The position numbers and the translations under genes were made by a program. From contig NC_013131.1 of NCBI RefSeq assembly GCF_000024025.1, forward strand, positions 5,394,001-5,458,000: a stretch of 64,000 bases of DNA. Reading direction: 5' to 3'. Positions 48,738-64,000 of the stretch are shown here, in pieces. The notes under the pieces were generated by a model. The model worked only from the letters and a program-made list of their open reading frames with translations, made no database searches and had not been told where the DNA came from. Each line of letters starts with the position of its first letter. Positions within the stretch are counted from its first letter, which is position 1. The DNA is from Catenulispora acidiphila DSM 44928. GTDB taxonomy: Bacteria > Actinomycetota > Actinomycetes > Streptomycetales > Catenulisporaceae.

Positions 48738-51827
<3,090 letters not shown>

Positions 51828-51904
51828 TGTTGTGGCCTCTCAGGCGGACGCTCTTAGACGTCGGGTGGTGGATTCGCGCCTCCCGCGGATCCGTCCTCCC
51901 CCTC

Positions 51905-52093
51905 TGTCATGGAACCTGAGAGTTTCACCGCGGGCGGGCAGGCGCACCTGTCCGACCCGGCGGCTTACACCGTCGGTGAGGGCTGCACTCCAGCTCAGCC
52001 CTGCTTTCCAGAGTTGCCTGCTCGAACGGTCCGTTTGCCTGAGAGTTTCCGGGGAGGGTTGCTCCTTCGGCGCCTGTGAGAGGTCTCTCCCGT
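51905..52093 (-). promoter_or_regulatory. Tandem glycine riboswitch of gcvP
   Basis: On the gcvP strand two aptamers follow one another. The first has CGGGAGAG (52092-52085), GGCGCCGAAGGAGC (around 52073-52060) and ACTCTCAGGCA (52046-52036). The second has CAGGCAACTCTGGAAAG (52020-52003), CTCACCGACGGTGTAAGCC (51980-51962) and GGTGAAACTCTCAGG (51929-51915). These are the conserved boxes of the cooperative glycine riboswitch. It ends about 75 bases before the start codon, leaving room for an expression platform. Glycine presumably switches gcvP on. Confidence 0.93.
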
Positions 52094-52194
52094 TCGAGGT
52101 AGTCGGCACCTACGACGGTATCAGCGACACCAGCACCAGTTCTAATCCCGTTAACCGTTTGCCGTACCGCCGCGGCCGATGATGGGCTGACCCC

Positions 52195-52995: not shown

Positions 52996-53167
52996 TCAGA
53001 GGCTGCTTCGAAGTGATCAGCGTCTACCGGGACCAATCCGTTGTCCGCGAGGCTAGGCCAGGTCGACATTCGCCACCCCGCCCCATGTATCAGACCCCTG
53101 TAACCGGGTAGGGCAGTGGCGGGCAGGATGCGGCATGCGCATCCGGGGGTGGGTCAGGGGGCTAGCG

Positions 53168-55003
53168 TTGAGGACGAATCCACGGCAGCACATCCTGGAT
53201 ACCTGGCGGGCGTTCGCGCGCGAGACGTTCAGCAGCGGGGAGTGGGCTTGGGGCGGTCGCTACCCGTCGAACAGCATTAGCGACGCCGAGCAGATCCTCG
53301 TGCTCCTCTACCCCGCGACCGAGGTGCCCGGCTTCCGGCTGGACCGCCCGGACGCCATCGAGGACGACGTGCTCGCGGTGCTCAAGCCCATGGGCAGCGG
53401 GCTGGACATCCCGATGCGGATGCTGGAAGCCCTGGAGGACTATCTGGCTCGCTATGCCGACGAGGAGGGCCGCCCGACCTTCGGCGGCGGCTCCTACCTG
53501 CTGACGGAGGAGCCCGGCGCCGAGGTGAAGCCGGAGCAGGCGGAGTATGACATCACCGAGTCGTATTCGATCTCCGTCACCCTGTGTCTGTCGGCGAAGG
53601 GCTTCCTGCGCGAGTTCCAGCGCACGGTCGAGCGGCGGGAGCTGCAGAGCCGGATCGACGTGGCGGTCACGGCCCTGGACCTGCGCCTGACCGCGGCCAT
53701 GGTCGGACTGCTGCGCTCCTTCGTCGTCAACGTCCTGAGTCCGGACACGCCGGCCGAAGCCGTGCTGCTGCGCACCGTCAGCCAGGGCAGGGCCGTGGGA
53801 CGGACCCTGACTCAGGACCTGCGCGGCCAATTGCAGCCGGTCCGCGACAAGCTGCCGGAGCTGACCTTCGGTCTCCCGCCGGAGAACGAGCAGATACTGC
53901 GCGACGATCCGGAGCGCTTCTTCGAATGCGGCTGGACCTGGGGGGTGGCGCAGGACGCCGCCGACATCGACCTGCCCGCGGCCGAGGACGTGCGGCAGCC
54001 GCAGGGCGTCGCCGAGTCCCGTCCAGTGCTGCACTTCACGGTCAACGCGCTCGACGGCCTGGCCGACCTCTTCTCCATCCGCACCTCCCGGCAAGGCCTG
54101 CTGACACCGGAACAGCAGCCCTTGCGTGAGGCGCTGAACCTGCGCTGGGGTCTAGCGTTGCAGTACTGGTCCACGATCGCGACCTTCGGCTCCGCCCGCT
54201 GGCCGATCGAGGACGTGCCGTGGCAGTCCACCGACGGCCAGAGCTCGCCCTACTTCTCCGAACTGGTCGTCTCGATCGTCGCCTTGGCCCAGCAGGGCGG
54301 CGGCGCCGACGGCACCATCGGGCGCAGCGTGGCGGTTCTCGAAGAACTCGGACAGCGCGGGCTGGTGAGCCGCCGCGCGACCGACGACGACCGCGGCGTG
54401 CTGCTGCACGATCCGGGCGTCCTGATGGCCTTGCGGGGATCGGAGGAGGAGGGCCCGCCACTGGCCCGGTCCTACAACGGCTACGCCGCCACCCTGGCCA
54501 AGACCGCGCTGCGGGTGGCGAGCGTCAGCACCAGTCGACGCAACCGGGCGCGCCTGATAGAGGTCGCGGACACGGCGGTGGACCATCTGCTCGCCCGGCG
54601 GCAGCAGCCTGACGGGCTGTGGGACCACCCGGACAACATCTTCCATCGGTCCGACCCGGCACCCTCCACACCCGCCTGGGACATGACCCACAACGTCGTC
54701 GAGGTCTTCGTCGCAGCGTCCTCCCTGGTCAGCGCCCCGCCGCTGGCCGACCAGGGCCAGGTCGACCAGGCCAACGCCAAGATCGCCGAAGCCCGCCACA
54801 TCCTGGACCAGGAGCGGCTGACCGCGCCCACGGCCGGCGGCTCCCTGCTGCAGAAGCTGCTCCGGGAGGCCGAACAGTCGCTGAACCGCGCCGACTCGCT
54901 GGCCTCGAAGCGACCGGCGACCGCTGCGGCGCTCGCCGACAAGGTGCTCAGAGATCTGGACGAACTGGCCTTCGCCCGCCAAGCCGCGAGCAGGAGCGCA
55001 TGA
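53168..55003 (+). CDS. SCO2524-like large helical protein, cassette 1
   Basis: A 611-residue protein of unknown function. From memory it resembles the uncharacterised SCO2524 family; I could not check this. The N-terminus TNPRQHILDTWRAFARETFSSGEWAWGGRYPSNSISDAEQILVLLYPATE is the most conserved part between the two cassettes. The middle has FECGWTWGVAQDA, LHFTVNALDGLADLFSIR and PYFSELVVSIVALAQQGG. The C-terminal part, AVDHLLARRQQPDGLWDHPDN, recalls alpha/alpha-toroid repeats of prenyltransferase- or squalene-cyclase-like proteins. TTG 53168 with AGGGGG 6 bases upstream is preferred; ATG 53135 is in frame. The next gene starts 1 base after the stop. Confidence 0.8.
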   Translation: MRTNPRQHILDTWRAFARETFSSGEWAWGGRYPSNSISDAEQILVLLYPATEVPGFRLDRPDAIEDDVLAVLKPMGSGLDIPMRMLEALEDYLARYADEEGRPTFGGGSYLLTEEPGAEVKPEQAEYDITESYSISVTLCLSAKGFLREFQRTVERRELQSRIDVAVTALDLRLTAAMVGLLRSFVVNVLSPDTPAEAVLLRTVSQGRAVGRTLTQDLRGQLQPVRDKLPELTFGLPPENEQILRDDPERFFECGWTWGVAQDAADIDLPAAEDVRQPQGVAESRPVLHFTVNALDGLADLFSIRTSRQGLLTPEQQPLREALNLRWGLALQYWSTIATFGSARWPIEDVPWQSTDGQSSPYFSELVVSIVALAQQGGGADGTIGRSVAVLEELGQRGLVSRRATDDDRGVLLHDPGVLMALRGSEEEGPPLARSYNGYAATLAKTALRVASVSTSRRNRARLIEVADTAVDHLLARRQQPDGLWDHPDNIFHRSDPAPSTPAWDMTHNVVEVFVAASSLVSAPPLADQGQVDQANAKIAEARHILDQERLTAPTAGGSLLQKLLREAEQSLNRADSLASKRPATAAALADKVLRDLDELAFARQAASRSA

Positions 55004-55004
55004 C

Positions 55005-55925
55005 GTGCTGATATTCGCCACCTCCGACAAGGGAGGCACGGGGCGCTCGGTGACCAGCTGCAACATGGCCTACCGGCGGGCACTGCAAGGCGAGGCGGTC
55101 GCCTATCTCGATTTCGACTTCGGATCGCCGACCGCGGGCGCGATCTTCGACGTTCCCAAGGCCGAGCGCGGCGTGGACGCCTCCGGCCTGCACTCCTACT
55201 TCACCAAGCACACCGAGGCCCAACAGCTCGACACGGCCCTGCACTCCGACAGCGACACGCTGCGCGACCTGCCCCGCATCTCCGGCGCCAGCCGCTTGGT
55301 CCTGCTGCCGGGAGACAGAGACGGCGGAGAGTTCTCGATCAGCGCGGACATGCCCGCCCGGTGCGCGCAGCTGTTCCTCAAGCTGGACCGCGAGTTCGAC
55401 TTATGCATCGTCGATCTGTCGGCCGGCCGCTCCTACGCCGTCGACCTGGTCCTGGAAGCCACCGCCCGGCCCGAGCTGGCCGCGCTGACCAGCCGCTGGC
55501 TGGTCTTCCACTGCTGGACCAAGCAGCACATCCTGGCCGCGCACGGCCTGGTGTTCGGCGAGAAGGGGCTGCTCAAGGCTGGCGAGCGCCGCGGCCACGA
55601 CCCCCAGAGGCTGAACAACTCCGTGCGCTACGTGCGCACCGCGGTAGTGGACCTGGGAGTTGATCAGGAGTCAGTGACCCGGCCGGCCCAGGGCGCGTGG
55701 CTGCGCGCCTATGACCAGAAGCTGAGAGAGCAGGCTGACAAGCTCCGGATGGGCCGGGCCCGCCTGGCCGGGCAGATCCCCTACGACCCGATGCTCCAAT
55801 GGAGCGAGCAAGTGATCGACGACTCCGACGTAAGCGGGTTGAAGATCGCCAACCAGGCCACCGTACAGGCCTTCGAGGACCTCGCCGCGAGACTGTCGGA
55901 CGAGAGATTCTGGGAAGGGCTGTGA
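55005..55925 (+). CDS. SCO2523-like ParA/MinD-fold ATPase with variant P-loop, cassette 1
   Basis: A 306-residue protein. MLIFATSDKGGTGRSVTSCNMAYR has the deviant Walker A of ParA/MinD ATPases with the signature lysine K9 kept, but arginine (R14) instead of the second, phosphate-binding lysine. VAYLDFDFGSPTAGAIF (residues about 30-46) and FDLCIVDLSAGRSYAVDLV follow, as in MinD-like proteins. No membrane amphipathic helix is obvious at the C-terminus. It resembles the SCO2523 'variant P-loop' family. The GTG start lies 1 base after the SCO2524-like gene, and its stop overlaps the next start (GTGA), giving a tight operon. Confidence 0.85.
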   Translation: MLIFATSDKGGTGRSVTSCNMAYRRALQGEAVAYLDFDFGSPTAGAIFDVPKAERGVDASGLHSYFTKHTEAQQLDTALHSDSDTLRDLPRISGASRLVLLPGDRDGGEFSISADMPARCAQLFLKLDREFDLCIVDLSAGRSYAVDLVLEATARPELAALTSRWLVFHCWTKQHILAAHGLVFGEKGLLKAGERRGHDPQRLNNSVRYVRTAVVDLGVDQESVTRPAQGAWLRAYDQKLREQADKLRMGRARLAGQIPYDPMLQWSEQVIDDSDVSGLKIANQATVQAFEDLAARLSDERFWEGL

Positions 55926-56959
55926 CGGCCGTGGACGTGAGCTACGACGAAGTGACCCAGACCGCGAAGGTGGACGCGGTGCCGCTGGGCCACCTCTCCG
56001 TCGAGACCGGGCACCTGTACCTGGACGACTTCGCCGAGGGGGACCGCAAGATCGCCCGACAGCTCGAGCAGGCCGCGCCCTGGCTGGAGGCGGCGGGCAA
56101 GCGGATCCGCAAACGGTTCGGACGCAATGCCCGGATCAGCACCTGCTTCCTGGTCGACGACTACACCCCGACTCGTTCAAGTCTGGACCAGCCCACGCCT
56201 TCGGAGGTGGTGGACATCGTCACAGCCGCCGCCGACCAGGCCGGATTCAAGATCGACTACCTGGCCAGGGAGGCCGGCTGCGCGGTCGCCTGCGAGCGCC
56301 CTTATTCAGGGCCGCGCGACCAGAGCGCGCTGGCGGACATCGTCGCCGGGCTGATCGTCGAGGAAGCCGCGGTCGGCGCCAACGGCTCCCGGCCGCCGAC
56401 GGTGCAGACCGGGTGGCTGTCCAACGGCGAGCGCTCGCCGGCCGTCGCCGTGGCGATGGACGCGCCGGACTGGGAGCCGCCGGAGGAGTTCGGAAGGTAC
56501 CGGCATTCGGTGTTCGTCGACGTCGAACTGTGGAACCTCGACAGGTCCCTTTCAGACTCCGAGCGGCAGTACTCATCCGCGCTGCTGTCCTCGGTGTGGC
56601 ATCTCCTGCGGCTGGGCCTGCTGCGCGATGCTGGAAAGGCCGTCGCCAAGCCATACCGATTCGGTCCTGGCGAGGCCTTCCCCGACCTGTGGTCGCAGCT
56701 GCCGAGCATCACGCAGCTGACCCAGGACGCCGCGCCCTTCGCCGCCTATCAGGTCTTTTCCATACTCCCGCCGTACTTCCGCGCGGCCGAACACGCCGCC
56801 GAGATCATCATCGACCACCTGCGGTTTGACGGAGCAGTTCTGAAGCAGACCGCCGACCGCGCCCGGGACGAGACGAACCCGGTCACACTGCCCGACAATC
56901 CGGTGGGCCGAATCAGCCATCTGTTCTTCGATGACGTCCATGTCACGCACAACGACTGA
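55922..56959 (+). CDS. SCO2522-like protein, cassette 1
   Basis: A 345-residue protein of unknown function, coupled to the P-loop ATPase gene by a GTGA overlap (GTG 55922). Blocks shared with the copy in cassette 2 are HLSVETGHLYLDDFAEG, ISTCFLVDDYTP, IDYLAREAGCAVAC, GSRPPTVQTGWLSNGER, HSVFVDVELW, RQYSSALLSSVWHLLRLGLLR and a closing GRISHLFFDDV. The conserved Asp/Glu pairs in the first two blocks could form a metal or nucleotide site, but no known catalytic motif is recognised. Resemblance to the SCO2522 family is from memory. Confidence 0.8.
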   Translation: MTAVDVSYDEVTQTAKVDAVPLGHLSVETGHLYLDDFAEGDRKIARQLEQAAPWLEAAGKRIRKRFGRNARISTCFLVDDYTPTRSSLDQPTPSEVVDIVTAAADQAGFKIDYLAREAGCAVACERPYSGPRDQSALADIVAGLIVEEAAVGANGSRPPTVQTGWLSNGERSPAVAVAMDAPDWEPPEEFGRYRHSVFVDVELWNLDRSLSDSERQYSSALLSSVWHLLRLGLLRDAGKAVAKPYRFGPGEAFPDLWSQLPSITQLTQDAAPFAAYQVFSILPPYFRAAEHAAEIIIDHLRFDGAVLKQTADRARDETNPVTLPDNPVGRISHLFFDDVHVTHND

Positions 56960-57929
56960 CTACGGCGCGCGTCTGGCCCAGCCCGAGGACGCCACGCGAC
57001 CGTTCCTGGCCTTGGGCGAGATCCGCACCTGCCTGATCCAGAACCGGGGAACGTTGTCCCAGCCGACGAGCGTGGCCCTGATGCAGCTGACCCCCGGCTC
57101 CCCGGTGAGCAAGGTGGACCGGCCGGTGCGGCGCGTGGTTTCTCCGGAGCAGGTCACCGGCGTCGACTGCCGACTCCAGATCGCCCGCGAGGGCCGCGGC
57201 CGGGCGATCGGCACGGTGCTGAGCCACGCCGTGGTCACCAACGGCCGGATCCTGCAGGGCACCGCGCATGCCGCGCTCACCAAGGCGACCTCCGACGAGC
57301 GCCGCGAGTGGCAGCATTACCTACGGCGCCGGGGCGCGCTGGAAGTACTCGGCTCGCCGAAGCCACAAAACGTCATCGACGGCTACCTGACCGACCTCTC
57401 CCCGGCTCGCGGCCTTGACCTGACCTCGATCAGCGACCGCATCATCGACACGGTGCAGCAGAGCAACCTGTTGAACCACAGCACGGCGCTGCGCGCCAGC
57501 ACCGCAGTGGTCCGCTGGGCCGCCACACTGGCGCCGGACGCCAAGCCGACCGTGGGGATACTCAAAAGCGACCTGTCGAACTTCCACGTCATCCGGCTGA
57601 GCGGGACGCCGGAAGACCTGCCGATGCTGATCCGGTTCTGTCAGGAGTTCGCGCTGCACGAGTGGCTGCTCACCACCGTGCAGGACGTCATCATCCCCCG
57701 CGCCGAGACGGACATCGCCCGGGACCGGGACCCCCTGGACGCCCTGCTGTTCGCGCTCAACGAGTTGGTGCCGCTATGGATGCCGCCCACCTACTTGAGC
57801 CCGGGAATGAAGGCGTTGTGGGACGCCCTCGAGAGCCGGACGCACTTCTCACTCCTGTTCGGGCGTCAGGTCTCGCGGATACGGGACCTGCGAGACCAGG
57901 TGAGAATCAGGCCACTGCGGAGGTCCTGA
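56931..57929 (+). CDS. SCO2521-like protein, cassette 1
   Basis: A 332-residue protein of unknown function. It overlaps the SCO2522-like gene by 29 bases from ATG 56931 (ATG 56940 is also possible). The shared features with the partner gene at 59425 are an N-terminal LGEIRTCLIQNRGTLS-type strand, IGTVLSHAVVTNGRILQGTAHA, LPMLIRFCQEFALHEWLLTTVQD and a C-terminal SPGMKALWDALESRTHFSLLFGRQVSRIRDLRDQV. No signal peptide, membrane helix or known enzyme motif is seen. It is the last of four tightly packed cassette genes; the next gene starts 151 bases on. Confidence 0.78.
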   Translation: MTSMSRTTTDYGARLAQPEDATRPFLALGEIRTCLIQNRGTLSQPTSVALMQLTPGSPVSKVDRPVRRVVSPEQVTGVDCRLQIAREGRGRAIGTVLSHAVVTNGRILQGTAHAALTKATSDERREWQHYLRRRGALEVLGSPKPQNVIDGYLTDLSPARGLDLTSISDRIIDTVQQSNLLNHSTALRASTAVVRWAATLAPDAKPTVGILKSDLSNFHVIRLSGTPEDLPMLIRFCQEFALHEWLLTTVQDVIIPRAETDIARDRDPLDALLFALNELVPLWMPPTYLSPGMKALWDALESRTHFSLLFGRQVSRIRDLRDQVRIRPLRRS

Positions 57930-58048
57930 GACTCGCGCCGCACCGCACCGGTAATATCACGAACGTTCATATCAATTGTCACTACAGCGTGTTCACCATT
58001 GCTTTGCTGCGACACAATCGCAGGAGCAGCAGGTCACAGGGGGAATCG

Positions 58049-58084
58049 ATGGACAGGCCGCGCCGGGCGGAAAAGCTGTGGTGA
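58049..58084 (+). CDS. 11-residue leader peptide frame overlapping the pore-like gene start
   Basis: ATG 58049 encodes MDRPRRAEKLW and stops at TGA 58082-58084. AGGGGGAATCG immediately before it is the best ribosome site in this region. Its stop overlaps the GTG start of the membrane protein (GTGA at 58081-58084). It may be a leader ensuring translational coupling. The alternative is that it is the original N-terminus of the membrane protein, separated by a one-base change. Confidence 0.45.
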   Translation: MDRPRRAEKLW

Positions 58085-58923
58085 TCGCCGGACCCGCCGG
58101 GGAGGACGCGGCGCCGCTCGAGACGTTCAAAGACAGCCTGGTCTCCGCGGCGAACGCCATCGCCGAGGAACTGGCGCGCGCTGGGCGCCAGGGTCGGCTG
58201 GCCGAGGTCGAGAAAGGCATCCTCGAGCGGTACGTCAAGCGGTCCAAGCTGGCACGGCAGCGGTTCATCAAGGCCGGTGGATCGGCGTCGGTGATGCTGG
58301 CCCTGGAGGAGTTCCACCAGGCGGACGTCGAGTTCGAACAAGTGCTGGCTCCCGAGGTCGCCGCGTTGCTGGCGGCATATGTGGAGGCCAACGGTCAGAA
58401 GTGGCTCAGCGAGAGCGACGCGACCATCATCGGCGGCTCTCTGGAGACGACCGGTGCCGCCCTGCTGGCCGCCGGGCTGCCGCTGTTCGCCGAGAACGCG
58501 TTCCGGCAGGCCGGGACGCTCTACCGGAGGTTCAACGACTCCTCGGGTGAAGACCGCTGCAAGTACCTGGCGGCAGCGGCACACCGGGTCTCGCTCCCCC
58601 GCTGGAGCGGCAAGCGGCTGTTGGCGGACCTGCAGGCGGTGCTGTTCGGGTACGGATACCGGCCGCTGCGGCTGCTGGTGTGGATCCTGGTCCTGGTCGC
58701 CGGCTTCACGGTCTGGCTGCTCGCCCTGCCCCGCACCGGGGGCGCGAACGAGTCCGAGGCCTTCTATGTCGCCGTGCAGAATTTCGTGAACCCGATGGGC
58801 CTGGGCGACGTCAGGCTGCTGTCAGGCCCGTGGAAACCGGTCCTGGAAATCGAGACTTATACCGGCGATGTCTTCCGGAACCTGTTCTTCGTGCTGCTCA
58901 TCCGCCGGCTCTTCCGGCTGTGA
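58081..58923 (+). CDS. Membrane protein with a degenerate pore-loop-like C-terminus
   Basis: About 280 residues from GTG 58081. Residues 1-170 are helical and soluble (ETFKDSLVSAANAIAEELARAGRQGR...). A transmembrane helix (LVWILVLVAGFTVWLLAL, about 199-216) follows, then AFYVAVQNFVNPMGLGDVRLLSG and a second hydrophobic helix VFRNLFFVLLIRRLF. This order (helix, pore loop ending GxGD, helix, basic end) resembles two-helix ion-channel modules appended to actinobacterial soluble domains, with NPMGLGD where a K+ channel has TVGYGD. Function unknown. It follows cassette 1 and its last 102 bases overlap the convergent GNAT gene. Confidence 0.65.
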   Translation: MIAGPAGEDAAPLETFKDSLVSAANAIAEELARAGRQGRLAEVEKGILERYVKRSKLARQRFIKAGGSASVMLALEEFHQADVEFEQVLAPEVAALLAAYVEANGQKWLSESDATIIGGSLETTGAALLAAGLPLFAENAFRQAGTLYRRFNDSSGEDRCKYLAAAAHRVSLPRWSGKRLLADLQAVLFGYGYRPLRLLVWILVLVAGFTVWLLALPRTGGANESEAFYVAVQNFVNPMGLGDVRLLSGPWKPVLEIETYTGDVFRNLFFVLLIRRLFRL

Positions 58924-59397
58924 CGCCGCGAGCACAGTGGGCAGCAGCAGAGTGAGGATCTTGCGCGGCATGCCGTCCCCGATGTCACCCTCCTTGATCT
59001 GGCCGGTGTCCTGGAATCCGGCCTGGATGTACAAGGCGTAGGCCGCCAGATTGCCCGGCTCGACGGTGAGCTTGATGGTGTCCATGTCACGGCTGCGCAG
59101 CTCCACGATGGACTCGTCGAGCAGCGCGCGCCCGATGTGCTCGCCGCGCCGCTCGGAGTGGACCCCGAGCGCCAGGATCCAGCCCACGCGCGGGTCGTCC
59201 ATGGCCCGCGTGGTCAGCGCGTAGCCCCAGACCCCCTCGAGGTCCTCGGCGACCAGCCATGCCTCGCCCGAGGTGCCGTAGAGTTGAAGAAGCGCGGAAT
59301 GGGAGAAACCCAGGTGGCCGAACAGCTGGCTTTCGAGTTCTGCGATACGGTACAGATCTCCCGGGCGCGCCGTTCTCACTGACAGAGGCTCCCCCAC
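58822..59397 (-). CDS. GNAT acetyltransferase (RimI-like) between the two cassettes
   Basis: A 191-residue protein: MGEPLSVRTARPGDLYRIAELESQLFG (GNAT start), ILALGVHSERRGEHIGRALLDESIVELRSRDMDTIKLTVEPGNLAAYALYIQAGFQDTGQIKEG (acetyl-CoA loop RRGEHIG and the RimI-type N-x-x-A-x-x-L-Y-x-x-x-G-F). The C-terminal 35 residues are encoded where it overlaps the pore-like membrane protein gene tail to tail. It may modify a cassette protein or be unrelated. Upstream of its start, 27 bases separate it from the end of cassette 2. Confidence 0.85.
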   Translation of the reverse strand: MGEPLSVRTARPGDLYRIAELESQLFGHLGFSHSALLQLYGTSGEAWLVAEDLEGVWGYALTTRAMDDPRVGWILALGVHSERRGEHIGRALLDESIVELRSRDMDTIKLTVEPGNLAAYALYIQAGFQDTGQIKEGDIGDGMPRKILTLLLPTVLAASQPEEPADEQHEEQVPEDIAGISLDFQDRFPRA

Positions 59398-59424: not shown

Positions 59425-60396
59425 TTACGCGAACTCCTTGTGCAGAGTCCCGTCGATCGCTTTTAGTGTCAACAGCGACACTTCATCCCTTACCCGCGTC
59501 AAAGTGGACTGCCACCCCCGACTCAGTTGCGCGTCACGCTCCAACGCCTTCCAGATCCACTGGGTCGGCTCTGACAGGTAGGCCGTCGGATTCCACATGT
59601 GGCCCAGGTAGCTCAGCGCCGGACCCAGCTCGTCGATGGGCCGGGGCGCGCGTCCGGACCGGTCGAAGGCGTTCTTCAGCGCCGCCAGCAGCCAGTGGTG
59701 CAGCGCCAGCGTCTCGCAGAACTCGACGATGCTCGGGAGCAGGGCGGTCGGCGCGGTCATGCGCACCCGGAACCCGCCGTCTTCGCCGGCGACGACCTCT
59801 GCCTGCATCTCGGCGTCGTCGCGAACCAGCACCGCCCAGCGCAGCCGGCCGGCCTCGGTGCGCATCCGGGCACGGCGGTCCACCTGCGGCACCGCGTCCA
59901 GCCGGGACATGATGTGCGCCCCTATCCCGGCGAGGTCCAGCAGACCGGCGCCGGACTCAGTGGTGAGGAACCCGGCTACAAGGTCGGCCGGGTCGGCCTT
60001 GTTCACCGCCTCGACAGTTCCGGTGCGCGCGGCGTAGTACGACCACGGCATGCGGCGCGTGGAAGCGTCCAGGACCACGTCCACGCGCGCGGAGCCCTGC
60101 AGCACATGACCGGCGGTGAGCAGGGCGCGGGCCCGGACCGTGCCGACGACGCGCGGCTGGGTGCGGCTGGTGGCCAGGGCGCAGTCCACCCCGTAGAACA
60201 GGTCGGGGGACACCACCTGGTCCTCCGGGTAGCGACGCGTGGCGGCGCCGACGCCGGGCAGCAGCTTGAGCGCCTGCCGGGCCGCGTCGAGCGGCAGCGG
60301 CCCGGAGGTGTTCAGCAGGTTGGTGACGACCACTCCCAGGACCACGGCCGGCGAGTGCCTGGCGGGGGGGTCCAGGGGCGCGCCGGAGCGCGCCAT
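59425..60396 (-). CDS. SCO2521-like protein, cassette 2
   Basis: A 323-residue counterpart of the gene at 56931. It shares VVGTVRARALLTAGHVLQGSARVD, DLVAGFLTTESGAGLLDLAGIGAHIMSRLD, LLPSIVEFCETLALHHWLLAALKNAFD and WNPTAYLSEPTQWIWKALERDAQLSRGWQSTLTRVRDEV with it in the same order, although the sequences have diverged strongly. The function is unknown. ATG 60396 shares a base with the TGA of the SCO2522-like gene (TGATG). It is the last gene of cassette 2, pointing toward cassette 1. Confidence 0.78.
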   Translation of the reverse strand: MARSGAPLDPPARHSPAVVLGVVVTNLLNTSGPLPLDAARQALKLLPGVGAATRRYPEDQVVSPDLFYGVDCALATSRTQPRVVGTVRARALLTAGHVLQGSARVDVVLDASTRRMPWSYYAARTGTVEAVNKADPADLVAGFLTTESGAGLLDLAGIGAHIMSRLDAVPQVDRRARMRTEAGRLRWAVLVRDDAEMQAEVVAGEDGGFRVRMTAPTALLPSIVEFCETLALHHWLLAALKNAFDRSGRAPRPIDELGPALSYLGHMWNPTAYLSEPTQWIWKALERDAQLSRGWQSTLTRVRDEVSLLTLKAIDGTLHKEFA

Positions 60397-61409
60397 CAGT
60401 CGACGCCGTCGAGGAAGTGGTGGCTCACCCGGTCGGCCACGGCGCTCGGCAGCGGCACGCTCTTCTCCGCCGCCCGCACCTGGAGCGACTCGTCCACACC
60501 GGGATCGACCAGGAAGTGGTCGACGATGGTGCGCACGGCGTGCTCGATGCCGAGGAAGTCGCTCGGCATGATACTCAGCGCACGATAGGCGTAGAAGGGC
60601 TTGGCCGCCGGATTGACCTTCACGATGTCCGGGAACACGGTCCAGTCGTTGGACCACTCCGCCGGCTGGTCGGCGACCGCGAGGGCCGGCGCGCCGTCGT
60701 GGCGCAGCAGCCCCAGCCGAATCAACTGCCAGACCGCCGCCAGAAAGGGACAGGAGTACTGCCTCCTCGCCAGCACGACATCATCGTCGGCGCCGGGCTC
60801 GGCGAAGTCCCGCCACAGCTCGACGTCGAGGAAGATCGAGTGGTTCAGCTTGCTGAACTCGACCGCGGGCTCCCAGGCGTGGCCGCGCATGGCGGACAGG
60901 ACCTTGCCCTCGCGCGCCGGCTTGCCGTTGGCCAGCCAGCCGGAGCGCACCGTCGGCGGACGGGAACCGGTGGTGATCTCCGGCTCCGGCTCCTGCAACA
61001 GGCGCCGCGCGACGAGCTCGGCGATCCGGGTCCCGTCGGCCCGGACCGCACAGGAGGACTCGCGGGCGAAATAGTCGATCCGCACCCCGGCGTCGGCCGA
61101 CAGACGCAGCAGTTTCTCGATTATGTCCTTGGCATCCGGCCAGCGCTGGAAATAGTCGTCGATCAGGAAGCAGGTACTCACTCGCGGCTTCTCAGTCCCG
61201 CAGACCACTGAGGCCTCGGCGGCGGCCAGCCACGGCCGGACCCGCTCGAACTGCGCCCTGATCGGGTCCTCGCCGTTCTCCAGGTCCTCCATGTAGAAGT
61301 GGCCGACTTCCACCGACAGGTGCGACAGCGGCAGGTTCTGTACCGTGGTGCCCTGACTGAGCTCCTGGAAGACCGGTGTCAGGGGCGCGCTTTGCGCTGT
61401 CGCAGTCAT
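60396..61409 (-). CDS. SCO2522-like protein, cassette 2
   Basis: A 337-residue counterpart of the gene at 55922. Shared blocks in order: HLSVEVGHFYMEDLENG, VSTCFLIDDYFQRW, VRIDYFARESSCAVRA, GSRPPTVRSGWLANGKPAREG, HSIFLDVELW, RRQYSCPFLAAVWQLIRLGLLR, ALSIMPSDFLGIEHAVRTIVDHFL and DRVSHHFLDGVD. The acidic pair in the VEVGHFYMED/LIDDY blocks is conserved in both copies. ATG 61409 overlaps the ATPase stop (TGATG). An unknown family; no enzyme is assigned. Confidence 0.8.
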   Translation of the reverse strand: MTATAQSAPLTPVFQELSQGTTVQNLPLSHLSVEVGHFYMEDLENGEDPIRAQFERVRPWLAAAEASVVCGTEKPRVSTCFLIDDYFQRWPDAKDIIEKLLRLSADAGVRIDYFARESSCAVRADGTRIAELVARRLLQEPEPEITTGSRPPTVRSGWLANGKPAREGKVLSAMRGHAWEPAVEFSKLNHSIFLDVELWRDFAEPGADDDVVLARRQYSCPFLAAVWQLIRLGLLRHDGAPALAVADQPAEWSNDWTVFPDIVKVNPAAKPFYAYRALSIMPSDFLGIEHAVRTIVDHFLVDPGVDESLQVRAAEKSVPLPSAVADRVSHHFLDGVD

Positions 61410-62335
61410 CAGAAACCCTCCCAGGCGTGGTCGTCGACGACCCTGATGGCCAACTTGTCGAAAGCCTGGGTGGTCGCGGGCTTGGCCAGCCTGCGGTTGA
61501 CGTCCAGGTCCATGATCACCTGCTCGCGCCACAGCAGCATCGGCTCCAGCGGCGTGGTCCCGGCCAGCAGGTCCTGCCCCAGTCCCCGGCCCTGTGCCAG
61601 GGCCTTGAGGTGGTCGTCGCTGCGGACCACCCAGCGGGTCTGCTCCGCGGTGGTCTTCTCCCCGAACGCCGAGGCGTCCGGGACGGCGGTGCGGACCGTG
61701 CGCACCAGCCGCATGAAGTCCGCCTGGGCGAAACCTGCCTCCACGGCGCACGGCAGGATGCCGTTCTGCTCGAACAGCAGACCGCCGGCGGCGATCACGT
61801 GCTGCGTGGTCCAGCGGTGGAACAGCAGCCAGCGGACGCGGTCGTTGCCCTCCCTGGTCTTCTTGCGCACCCGGGGGGAGATGGCGTTCAGCGACATGTC
61901 CAGCGCCGAGGACCGGCCCGCGCTCAGGTCCACGATGCAGACGTCGAACTCGCGCTCGACGGTCTGGAACAGGCTGATGGCCGCCTTGATGTGGTCGTCG
62001 CTCAGGTGGAACTCCGCGCCTCCGACGTCCCCGGGGAACAGGGTCAGCTTGCCGGAGCCGGAGGGCCGCTCCTGCAGCGCCGGGCGCTCGGTGACCTTCC
62101 GGACGTCGACCCGGGTCGGCACGGTGGTCTGGCCCAGGATGAAGGAGTGCAGGCCGCCGTCCTGGGTGCCGCGCTCCAGCTTCGGGATCTCGAAGATCGC
62201 CCCGGCGGTCGGCGACCCGAAGTCGAAGTCCAGGTAGGCCACGTCCCGACCCAGCAGCGACAGCCGGTAGGCCATGTTGCAACTGGTCACCGACCGTCCT
62301 GTGCCGCCCTTGTCGGAGGAGGAGAAGATCAGCAT
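61409..62335 (-). CDS. SCO2523-like ParA/MinD-fold ATPase with variant P-loop, cassette 2
   Basis: A 308-residue counterpart of the gene at 55005. MLIFSSSDKGGTGRSVTSCNMAYRLSLLG repeats the K9/R14 variant P-loop exactly. VAYLDFDFGSPTAGAIFEIPKLERG and FDVCIVDLSAGRSSALDM also match. The C-terminal part shares LLAGTTPLEPMLLWREQVIMDLDV with cassette 1's IPYDPMLQWSEQVIDDSDV. Persistence of the lysine-to-arginine change in both diverged copies argues it is functional. The ATG starts directly after the SCO2524-like TAG. Confidence 0.85.
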   Translation of the reverse strand: MLIFSSSDKGGTGRSVTSCNMAYRLSLLGRDVAYLDFDFGSPTAGAIFEIPKLERGTQDGGLHSFILGQTTVPTRVDVRKVTERPALQERPSGSGKLTLFPGDVGGAEFHLSDDHIKAAISLFQTVEREFDVCIVDLSAGRSSALDMSLNAISPRVRKKTREGNDRVRWLLFHRWTTQHVIAAGGLLFEQNGILPCAVEAGFAQADFMRLVRTVRTAVPDASAFGEKTTAEQTRWVVRSDDHLKALAQGRGLGQDLLAGTTPLEPMLLWREQVIMDLDVNRRLAKPATTQAFDKLAIRVVDDHAWEGF

Positions 62336-64000
62336 CTAGCGGCTCCGCCCGGCGTCCAGATCGGCTTCCTCGAGAGCGTCCAGCAGGCGAAGCGCGCGCT
62401 CGGACAGCGCGATCGCGGTACTGGTACGACGGTTGCGCAGTTCACGGGCCCGTTTGATGAGCTGCCCGATCTCCTCCAGGCGCTCGCGCAGCGTGGAGCG
62501 GTCGTCCACGTTGGAGCGCATCAGTTCCTGGTTGTAGACGTGGTCGGCCTCGTTGAGCAGGCGCAGCAGATGGTCGTACATCCGGGAGCTGCGCGGCGGT
62601 TCCTGCTCGAAAGCCGTCGCGGTGGCGACCAACGCCTCGACCACGCGCTCGGTGAGGTACCAGGAGGGCCGCTCGAAGGCGTACGTCTCCAGGCCCGGCA
62701 GGTGGCTGAGGTCGTCCCAGAGCTCGACGGACTCCCCGTCGCGGGTCAGGCGGCGATCGTCCAGGTGGTCCATGGCGGCCTCGGCGACCGCCATCAGCGC
62801 CTCGCGCGCCTCGACGTTGTCGGTCAGCTGCGCCGCCTGCAGGGACCGCTTGATGATCAGGGGCGAGTAGTCGGCGGTGTACAGCGCCAGGTGCGAGCCC
62901 ACCGCCTCCTCGCTGCCGACCAGTCCCTGGCGGACGCCGGGATAGTGCAGCGTCGCGGCCGGGTCGTCCTCGGTCATCCGGCTGGTGATGCGGCCGCGGC
63001 GGGCCAGTTCCTGGATGATGCCGACGGCCTTGATCAGGTCGGCGTCGTTGGCGGTCCTGTTGATCAGGTCCTGGATCAGCACCGAGACGACCAGCAGGGA
63101 GTAGTAGTCGGACTCCTCGCCGTCGCTGGTGCGCCAGGGGATGTCCGCCAGCGGCCACTGCTCGTCGTCGAAGCGCGCGACCGCGGACCAGTACCGCTGG
63201 GTGAGGTCCCAGCGCAGACCGAGGGCTTCGGACAGCGCGCGCTGCTCGGTGGTGAGGATGTTCAGGGCCCTGATGCGGCGGGAGGTGAGGTCGACGATGC
63301 CGTCCAGGGCGGACACCGTGAAATACAGCCAGGGGCGGGCCATGGCGTATCCGGGCCTGGAGGACATGTCGTAGTCCGCCGCGTACTCGACGATCTTCCG
63401 CGCGTCCTTGGCGATGCCCCAGGTCCAGCCGCACTCGAAGAGCTGGTCCTCGTCGGGCTTGCTCTCGTCGGCCACGCCGAGGCGCACGTCGGTCTTGAGC
63501 TGGTTGCGCAGCCGGTCGAACCGGGTCTTCAGACCCTGCTGCAGCTCGGCGTCGGTGGTGTCGCCCTGGCGGAGCATCCCCAGGATCGCCCGGCCCTGGT
63601 CGGAGTCCGAGCCGACAGAGTTCACCACGAAGCTGCGCAGCAGGCCGACCATGGCCGCGGTGAGACGGCGGGACGCCTTCTCGTTCAGGTCGACGAGTTT
63701 CTCGCGCTGCTTGGGCTGCGCTTCCCGCTCCAGGCGGTCGTTCGCGAAGACCATCAGGGTCAGGCACAGCGTGATCGACATCGAGTAGCCGTCGACGACC
63801 TCGAGCTGCAGCAGGATCGCGTCCTCCGGCAGCGGGGTCTCCGGGGACATCGCCCGCAGATAGCTGCCGGCGGCGAAGTTCGGCTCGCCCCGGCCGTCGG
63901 TGTGCTTCTCGAAGTACTCCAGCGCCACGTCCACCAGCACCCGCGGGATCCTGGTGGCCTCCCCGAGCGGTCTGAGCGCGCGGAGCACGTCCTGCTGCGT
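62336..64000 (-). CDS. SCO2524-like large helical protein, cassette 2 (5' end beyond window)
   Basis: 555 codons visible, running off the right edge. The last bases read QQDVLRALRPLGEATRIPRVLVDVALEYFEKHTDGRGEPNFAAGSYL, matching cassette 1's DVLAVLKPMGSGLDIPMRMLEALEDYLARYADEEGRPTFGGGSYL, so roughly 75 N-terminal residues lie outside. Shared blocks are SMSITLCLTLMVFANDRLER, RRLTAAMVGLLRSFVVNSV, FECGWTWGIAKDA, LYFTVSALDGIVDL and LGLRWDLTQRYWSAVARFDDEQWPLADIPW. An ATG at 63988 is internal and not the true start. Function unknown. Confidence 0.8.
   Translation of the reverse strand, partial: TQQDVLRALRPLGEATRIPRVLVDVALEYFEKHTDGRGEPNFAAGSYLRAMSPETPLPEDAILLQLEVVDGYSMSITLCLTLMVFANDRLEREAQPKQREKLVDLNEKASRRLTAAMVGLLRSFVVNSVGSDSDQGRAILGMLRQGDTTDAELQQGLKTRFDRLRNQLKTDVRLGVADESKPDEDQLFECGWTWGIAKDARKIVEYAADYDMSSRPGYAMARPWLYFTVSALDGIVDLTSRRIRALNILTTEQRALSEALGLRWDLTQRYWSAVARFDDEQWPLADIPWRTSDGEESDYYSLLVVSVLIQDLINRTANDADLIKAVGIIQELARRGRITSRMTEDDPAATLHYPGVRQGLVGSEEAVGSHLALYTADYSPLIIKRSLQAAQLTDNVEAREALMAVAEAAMDHLDDRRLTRDGESVELWDDLSHLPGLETYAFERPSWYLTERVVEALVATATAFEQEPPRSSRMYDHLLRLLNEADHVYNQELMRSNVDDRSTLRERLEEIGQLIKRARELRNRRTSTAIALSERALRLLDALEEADLDAGRSR

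Follow-up and report, generated by a model that had tools for sequence, protein, structure and literature searches.

A P-loop arginine typical of the SCO2523 family in two predicted MinD/ParA-like ATPases of Catenulispora acidiphila

The window analysed, a stretch of 64,000 nucleotides from Catenulispora acidiphila DSM 44928 (contig NC_013131.1, positions 5,394,001 to 5,458,000), contained two copies of a four-gene module encoding proteins of the SCO2524, SCO2523, SCO2522, and SCO2521 families. An ATPase gene was the second gene in each cassette, and all eight module proteins scored over their NCBIfam cut-offs, including the one that was cut by the window end. The genes and motifs were located as follows.

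53135..55003, + strand: SCO2524-family protein, first gene of module copy 1 (NF040567, 674.4 bits, cut-off 300)
55005..55925, + strand: SCO2523-family variant P-loop protein, copy 1, 306 aa, predicted MinD/ParA fold (NF040564, 440.9 bits)
55029..55049, + strand: P-loop of copy 1, K9-G-G-T-G-R14-S15, read from the sequence
55110..55118, + strand: A' motif of copy 1, D36-F-D38, invariant in the 138 homologues with R14
55413..55430, + strand: Walker B/switch II of copy 1, D137-L-S-A-G-R142, with D137, S139, G141, and R142 invariant in the 138 homologues with R14
55922..56959, + strand: SCO2522-family protein, third gene of module copy 1 (NF040566, 339.1 bits, cut-off 200), with an uncertain class I aaRS/HUP-like model match
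56931..57929, + strand: SCO2521-family protein, fourth gene of module copy 1 (NF040565, 268.6 bits, cut-off 150)
59425..60396, - strand: SCO2521-family protein, module copy 2 (NF040565, 298.3 bits)
60396..61412, - strand: SCO2522-family protein, module copy 2 (NF040566, 369.6 bits)
61409..62335, - strand: SCO2523-family variant P-loop protein, copy 2, 308 aa (NF040564, 413.0 bits)
62291..62311, - strand: P-loop of copy 2, KGGTGRS, read from the sequence
62336..64000, - strand: SCO2524-family protein, module copy 2 (NF040567, 585.3 bits for 62336-63988), extending beyond the window end into locus L207

Between the paired modules lay a gene at 57976-58923 (+) without any Pfam, NCBIfam, or PADLOC match, for which 28 of the 96 wide loci had a relative, and a GNAT acetyltransferase gene at 58822-59397 (-). 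A relative of this GNAT or of the one at locus L111 was present in 82 of the 96 wide loci (E <= 1e-10; genome repeats included), and the gene may be an accessory gene or may just represent a common fold. The window also harbored tandem glycine riboswitch aptamers at 51894-52102 (-; Rfam RF00504, 72.2 and 43.5 bits), with a gene for the P-protein of glycine cleavage (48738-51827; PF02347, 634.4 bits) located downstream of them.

Both ATPases contained the motif DKGGTGRS near the N terminus, in which the signature lysine K9 was present and R14 occupied the position of the Walker A lysine. Copy 1 starts with GTG at 55005, and its K9 is encoded by AAG (55029-55031) and its residue 14 by CGC (Arg; 55044-55046); copy 2 starts with ATG at 62335, with AAG (62311-62309) for K9 and CGG (Arg; 62296-62294) for residue 14. 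The codons of both copies thus confirmed the original prediction that each ATPase keeps K9 and carries R14 in place of the second lysine. D36, D38, and D137 were present in both proteins, which shared 49-50% identity. On sequence grounds, both are members of NCBIfam NF040564, "SCO2523 family variant P-loop protein," as they exceeded its curated cut-off of 200 bits. The P-loop variant is already named in this curated family and is therefore not new as a sequence feature. The literature searched yielded no paper on the SCO2523 P-loop variant, almost nothing on the SCO2521-SCO2524 operon, and no biochemical datum for any member of the SCO2523 family. The present analysis adds the count of R14 across the family, the intact state of the rest of the site, the tie between R14 and the module, and a paralogue in a VMAP-type operon.

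Homologues were defined as reading frames that matched copy 1 at E <= 1e-30, which gave 173 frames corresponding to 140 distinct proteins and to 160 loci that include repeats of the same genome. The loci came from the profile searches described below and included 17 from the named genome collection, one of which (an Omnitrophota MAG) matched only residues 3-48. Two truncated frames that lack the P-loop (L005 and L007; one of the 173 and one extra found by profile, for a total of 174) were excluded. Position 14 was arginine in 138 of the 140 distinct homologues, glutamine in one, and threonine in one, whereas position 9 was lysine in 138, asparagine in one, and glutamine in one. With lysine at position 14 in none of the 140, the proposed variant P-loop withstood the comparison with its homologues. 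The 138 arginines were specified by five arginine codons (CGC 98, CGT 17, CGG 13, CGA 7, and AGG 3), and a chance event, sequencing error, or neutral drift in the window is for all practical purposes ruled out by these codons and by the near-uniform R14 of the homologues. The description "both cassette ATPases" understates the trait, since R14 is, from the aligned homologues, typical of the whole family. The family profile was searched against overlapping draws from the phylum (396 genomes), the order (391), and the class (394), and an SCO2523 match over the cut-off was detected in 7, 90, and 37 genomes, respectively.

Conservation of the active site was tabulated for the 138 R14 proteins, the Q14 and T14 proteins having been dropped beforehand. 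K9 was found in 137 of the 138, and T12, G13, S15, D36, D38, G40, D137, S139, G141, and R142 were each found in all 138. One full-module copy, at locus L126, carried N9 instead of K9. In the Q14 protein (L104), K9, D36 and D38 of the A' motif, and the aspartate of Walker B were retained, and the T14 protein (L107) had Q9 and a glycine for D38. Because the other site residues are near-invariant, the SCO2523 site is altered at one residue and held there. The family is a natural lysine-to-arginine experiment: a slow switch may be able to do without the lysine, or the arginine may have a specific role of its own. The original prediction had argued for a working but altered nucleotide site from its retention in two diverged copies. 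The altered site is consistent with the near-invariance of its other residues, but retention in two copies fails as an argument, because R14 is a family-wide, already curated trait and the two copies in the window are not independent observations.

The families NF040564-NF040567, named after Streptomyces coelicolor SCO2521-2524, follow the same four-gene order as the window and nothing essential differs, and the genome of C. acidiphila carries the SCO2524-2521 module twice. Gene order was assessed, with intervening genes allowed, for distinct SCO2523 genes that had no less than 2.0 kb of sequence upstream and 2.6 kb downstream, of which there were 99. The order 2524-2523-2522-2521 on one strand was observed in 97 of them, and the two genes that lacked it were those at L104 (Q14) and L107 (T14). 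As the only exceptions to the order are the Q14 and T14 proteins, the arginine goes with an intact module wherever this could be tested. When SCO2524 genes with 1 kb or more of upstream sequence were examined, 56 of 103 were directly preceded by an SCO2525-type methyltransferase gene (genome repeats included); none was found in the C. acidiphila genome, and the same search gave no match in a control genome either. The S. coelicolor operon sco2521-sco2526 is described in PMC11472566 as being among the genes that seem to be controlled by HupS; with reference to Gehring 2004, SCO2525 is there said to be needed for growth to be normal. The paired modules were convergent in the window and in some relatives (L125, L129, L130, and L131), and divergent in others (L124, L126, L127, and L128), so that the arrangement of the pair has changed between species. 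At L115, 2523 and 2522 were separated by an additional gene that matched DUF6879 (L115:7405-8358), and L135 and L136 had a gap of about 1.1 kb at this place, which is similar in size to the L115 insert. The module is widespread, with its ATPase family in 90 of the 391 genomes searched in the order, and the literature found on it is scant.

The Q14 paralogue is the third SCO2523 copy of the C. acidiphila genome (match at 4391659-4392567), and its gene (L104:7654-8577, -; P-loop KGGAGQT) lies at a locus spanning G000:C1:4384000-4400000, within an operon at L104:6638-15985. The genes of this operon are ordered as hydrolase, caspase-VMAP-C, MoxR-like, SAV_2336-CHAT, SCO2523-like, and SCO2521-like. 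Support for these assignments included an alpha/beta hydrolase match of 21.2 bits that was below the cut-off of 26.3, PF20028 (113.7 bits) and PF00656 (31.6 bits) for the gene encoding the caspase and VMAP-C domains, AAA_5 (32.4 bits) for the MoxR-like AAA gene, which reached only 69.1 of 475 for MadB, NF041121 (374.3 bits) and CHAT (28.7 bits, cut-off 24) for the SAV_2336-CHAT gene, and 171.1 bits (cut-off 150) for the SCO2521 homologue that follows the SCO2523-like gene. The SCO2523-like gene overlaps the end of the SAV_2336-CHAT gene by four bases. MoxR, VMAP-C, and vWA genes would be expected of a VMAP/vWA-MoxR ternary system, and of these MoxR-like and caspase-VMAP-C genes are present at L104; caspase-type VMAP ternary systems with a neighboring alpha/beta hydrolase are described in passages of Kaur et al. 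(2020; PMC7159879). The correspondence is incomplete, because Pfam detected no vWA domain in the L104 SAV_2336-CHAT protein.

VMAP genes were sought around L104, around the window modules and, less closely, around L107, which had WD40-AAA_16 and LCAT-like genes as neighbors. Unlike the VMAP/vWA-MoxR systems, the window modules had no MoxR, vWA, VMAP, or caspase match among nine window proteins and eight further scanned neighbors. The nearest of these eight were GcvP, two GNATs, a luciferase-like monooxygenase, and an aldo/keto reductase, and the others were a RecD2-type helicase domain, a GDSL lipase, and MurJ. The context of the one paralogue points to a role in conflict or stress. For the window modules, the case for a conflict role is weak, because the VMAP-type context is a single instance and the neighbors scanned around them are of other kinds. 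An anti-phage label was rejected, as PADLOC returned only P-loop-sized matches to PDC-M28B in the two ATPases (19.1 and 20.1 bits, residues 7-47) and no match for the other seven of the nine window proteins.

The AlphaFold2 model of copy 1, which was based on 53 aligned sequences, had a pLDDT of 93.8 and a pTM of 0.92. Foldseek with this model gave FleN, FlhG, and MinD as the best matches, and VIA gave a Z of 24.2 to ParA-ATP (8ray_B; rmsd 2.5 over 239 residues) and of 24.0 to the E. coli MinD-ATP dimer entry (3q9l_A; rmsd 3.0 over 241 residues). The SCO2523 profile matched Mrp/ApbC-type and MinD-type chains, with R14 falling on their lysine in the three alignments examined. The SCO2523 family is thus predicted, from the model and the profile, to consist of SIMIBI NTPases with the deviant Walker A MinD/ParA fold, and it has the signature lysine and the A' and Walker B aspartates of this group, but not the Walker A lysine. 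MinD, ParA, FlhG, and FleN share the predicted fold and most motifs with SCO2523, although they have KGGxGK(S/T) in the table of PMC9178275, where SCO2523 has arginine. No MinE- or ParB-like protein was recognized among the scanned neighbors of the window modules. BcsQ, which is involved in cellulose secretion, resembles SCO2523 in being MinD-like with a replaced Walker lysine. On the other hand, BcsQ has threonine at the Walker lysine and arginine for the signature lysine, its P-loop reading RGGVGTT in the table of PMC9178275, and belongs to another operon with other partners. The title of structure entry 6ybb describes a complex of BcsQ R156E, a mutant protein, with ATP bound and, going by this title, a MinD-like protein with a replaced lysine can be crystallized with ATP. 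The precedent is imperfect, because the signature lysine of BcsQ differs too.

The C. acidiphila genome also encodes three proteins over the cut-off of NF047398 (KGGVGR), with the P-loops KGGTGRS, KGGTGRT, and KGGCGRT. All three follow genes for TIR-like FxsC proteins, and two run on into FxSxx TPR proteins, in one of which NB-ARC was over the cut-off and in the other just under it. Three other ParA/MinD/Mrp-like proteins sampled from this genome had lysine at the P-loop. The statement in the original prediction that GRS/GRT variants occur in some actinobacterial conflict-type proteins is borne out by the three NF047398 proteins, which lie by FxsC genes in the very same genome. According to passages of Kaur et al. 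(2020; PMC7159879), MinD/ParA-like effector domains in VMAP-type systems and MinD/ParA-like domains in the AP-ATPases of related peptide-processing systems are predicted to be inactive. NF047398 proteins, which belong to FxSxx-COOH/FxsC systems, share with SCO2523 the arginine at the Walker lysine, the signature lysine, and a D-x-D A' motif, whereas they have further domains and the window ATPases are stand-alone proteins of 306-308 aa. Assignment of the window ATPases to NF047398 was rejected, since their scores of 38 and 34.3 bits lay far below its cut-off of 90. A quick tree was calculated from 55 ATPase domains with column 14 omitted, including 16 SCO2523-family rows from 51 representatives and the window copies. 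The SCO2523 and KGGxGR groups each formed one side of a branch and the free search kept them apart; a constrained tree that joined them was 11.57 log units better than the free search (p-AU 0.851). A single origin of the arginine in SCO2523 and NF047398 is thus possible from the sequences compared.

Two lysines contact the nucleotide in this superfamily, that of the P-loop touching its phosphates in cis and the signature lysine coming in trans from the other subunit; water is held in position by the A' aspartate. The prevailing view of MinD/ParA proteins is that they are positioners with a fast ATP cycle, and a domain without the Walker lysine is often judged dead. Walker A lysine-to-arginine mutants often bind ATP but barely hydrolyze it. 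The reading that we favor, and to which we give an even chance from sequence conservation and the model, is that SCO2523 acts as a nucleotide-binding, slowly hydrolyzing dimer switch that is gated by a partner. ATP would be bound in a sandwich dimer by the P-loop backbone, R14, S15 with Mg2+, D137, and K9 in trans. With R14 instead of lysine, the transition state would be poorly stabilized, so that hydrolysis would be slow or would wait for a partner; as only the cis lysine is changed, binding and dimerization are expected to persist. SCO2523 may then serve the SCO2524, SCO2522, and SCO2521 proteins as an assembly clamp or as an on/off switch with long-lasting states, and not as a fast-cycling positioner like MinD. 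Support for the slow switch comes from R14 (138/140, five codons), K9 (138/140), D36, D38, D137, G141, and R142 (each 138/138 of the R14 proteins), the confident predicted fold, the module order (97/99), and the BcsQ precedent. Against it stand the lack of R14 in both paralogues outside the full module, one of which also lacks K9 and D38, the N9 of the full-module copy at L126, and the prediction of Kaur et al. (2020) that related MinD/ParA-like domains of conflict systems are inactive, and the conservation of SCO2523 could serve protein contacts and not nucleotide.

The same paralogues, with Q14 at L104 and without K9, R14, and D38 at L107, are in line with a pseudo-ATPase, in which the site no longer binds nucleotide and the MinD-like fold is a structural or dominant-negative effector domain, as are the MinD/ParA-like domains of related systems that are predicted to be inactive in passages of Kaur et al. 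(2020; PMC7159879). However, the retention of K9 in 137 and of T12, G13, S15, D36, D38, and D137 in each of the 138 R14 proteins exceeds the needs of a scaffold, and a dead site would not be expected where the A' and switch residues are so tightly held; we consider a pseudo-ATPase rather unlikely. An ordinary ATPase with normal stimulated turnover, in which arginine stands in for lysine and compensation is provided elsewhere (for example, by the invariant R142 in switch II, R164, or R211), seems a little more doubtful still. Arginine does keep the positive charge, and the other catalytic positions and the three further arginines are conserved. Lysine-to-arginine replacement usually cripples P-loop NTPases, which counts against such an ordinary enzyme. 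The table of deviant Walker A motifs in PMC9178275 is without arginine at the catalytic lysine. The slow switch is favored over both the pseudo-ATPase and the ordinary ATPase.

A broader version of the slow switch, which we offer as a speculation of low probability, would make the obligate P-loop arginine the mark of a distinct MinD-like class that has one origin and comprises the stand-alone SCO2523 proteins and the KGGxGR domains of FxSxx/NB-ARC conflict proteins. ATP would not cycle but lock a dimer that holds SCO2524, SCO2521, and a possibly nucleotide-binding, synthetase-like SCO2522 armed or silenced. Break-up of the module, for which the VMAP-type operon at L104 would be an example, would free the arginine from selection.

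Among the partner proteins, SCO2522 (55922-56959) had invariant R71, D79, D112, R116, N168, H195, and D200 in 41 sequences. Its model was of moderate confidence (pLDDT 81.7), and VIA gave a Z of 11.2 to ArgRS (rmsd 3.5 over 209 residues) and of up to 9.8 to MetRS. Foldseek with the same model returned nothing at E <= 0.001, the best synthetase having an E of 0.18, and there was no synthetase among the four Pfam families listed for the 41 members and no match to PDB sequences. The HIGH motif of class I synthetases is expected at the helix following the first strand, and the GH pair of SCO2522 (residues 30-31) lies within the predicted first strand. In view of the moderate model, the lack of Foldseek, Pfam, and PDB support, and the misplaced GH pair, assignment of SCO2522 as a class I aminoacyl-tRNA synthetase was rejected and is left as a lead. 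Against PDB sequences, the SCO2524 profile gave two weak matches and the SCO2521 profile none. Nine of 42 SCO2524 proteins matched DUF6829 (best E 9.1e-06), and one of 38 SCO2521 proteins weakly matched VMAP-M0 (E 0.0072).
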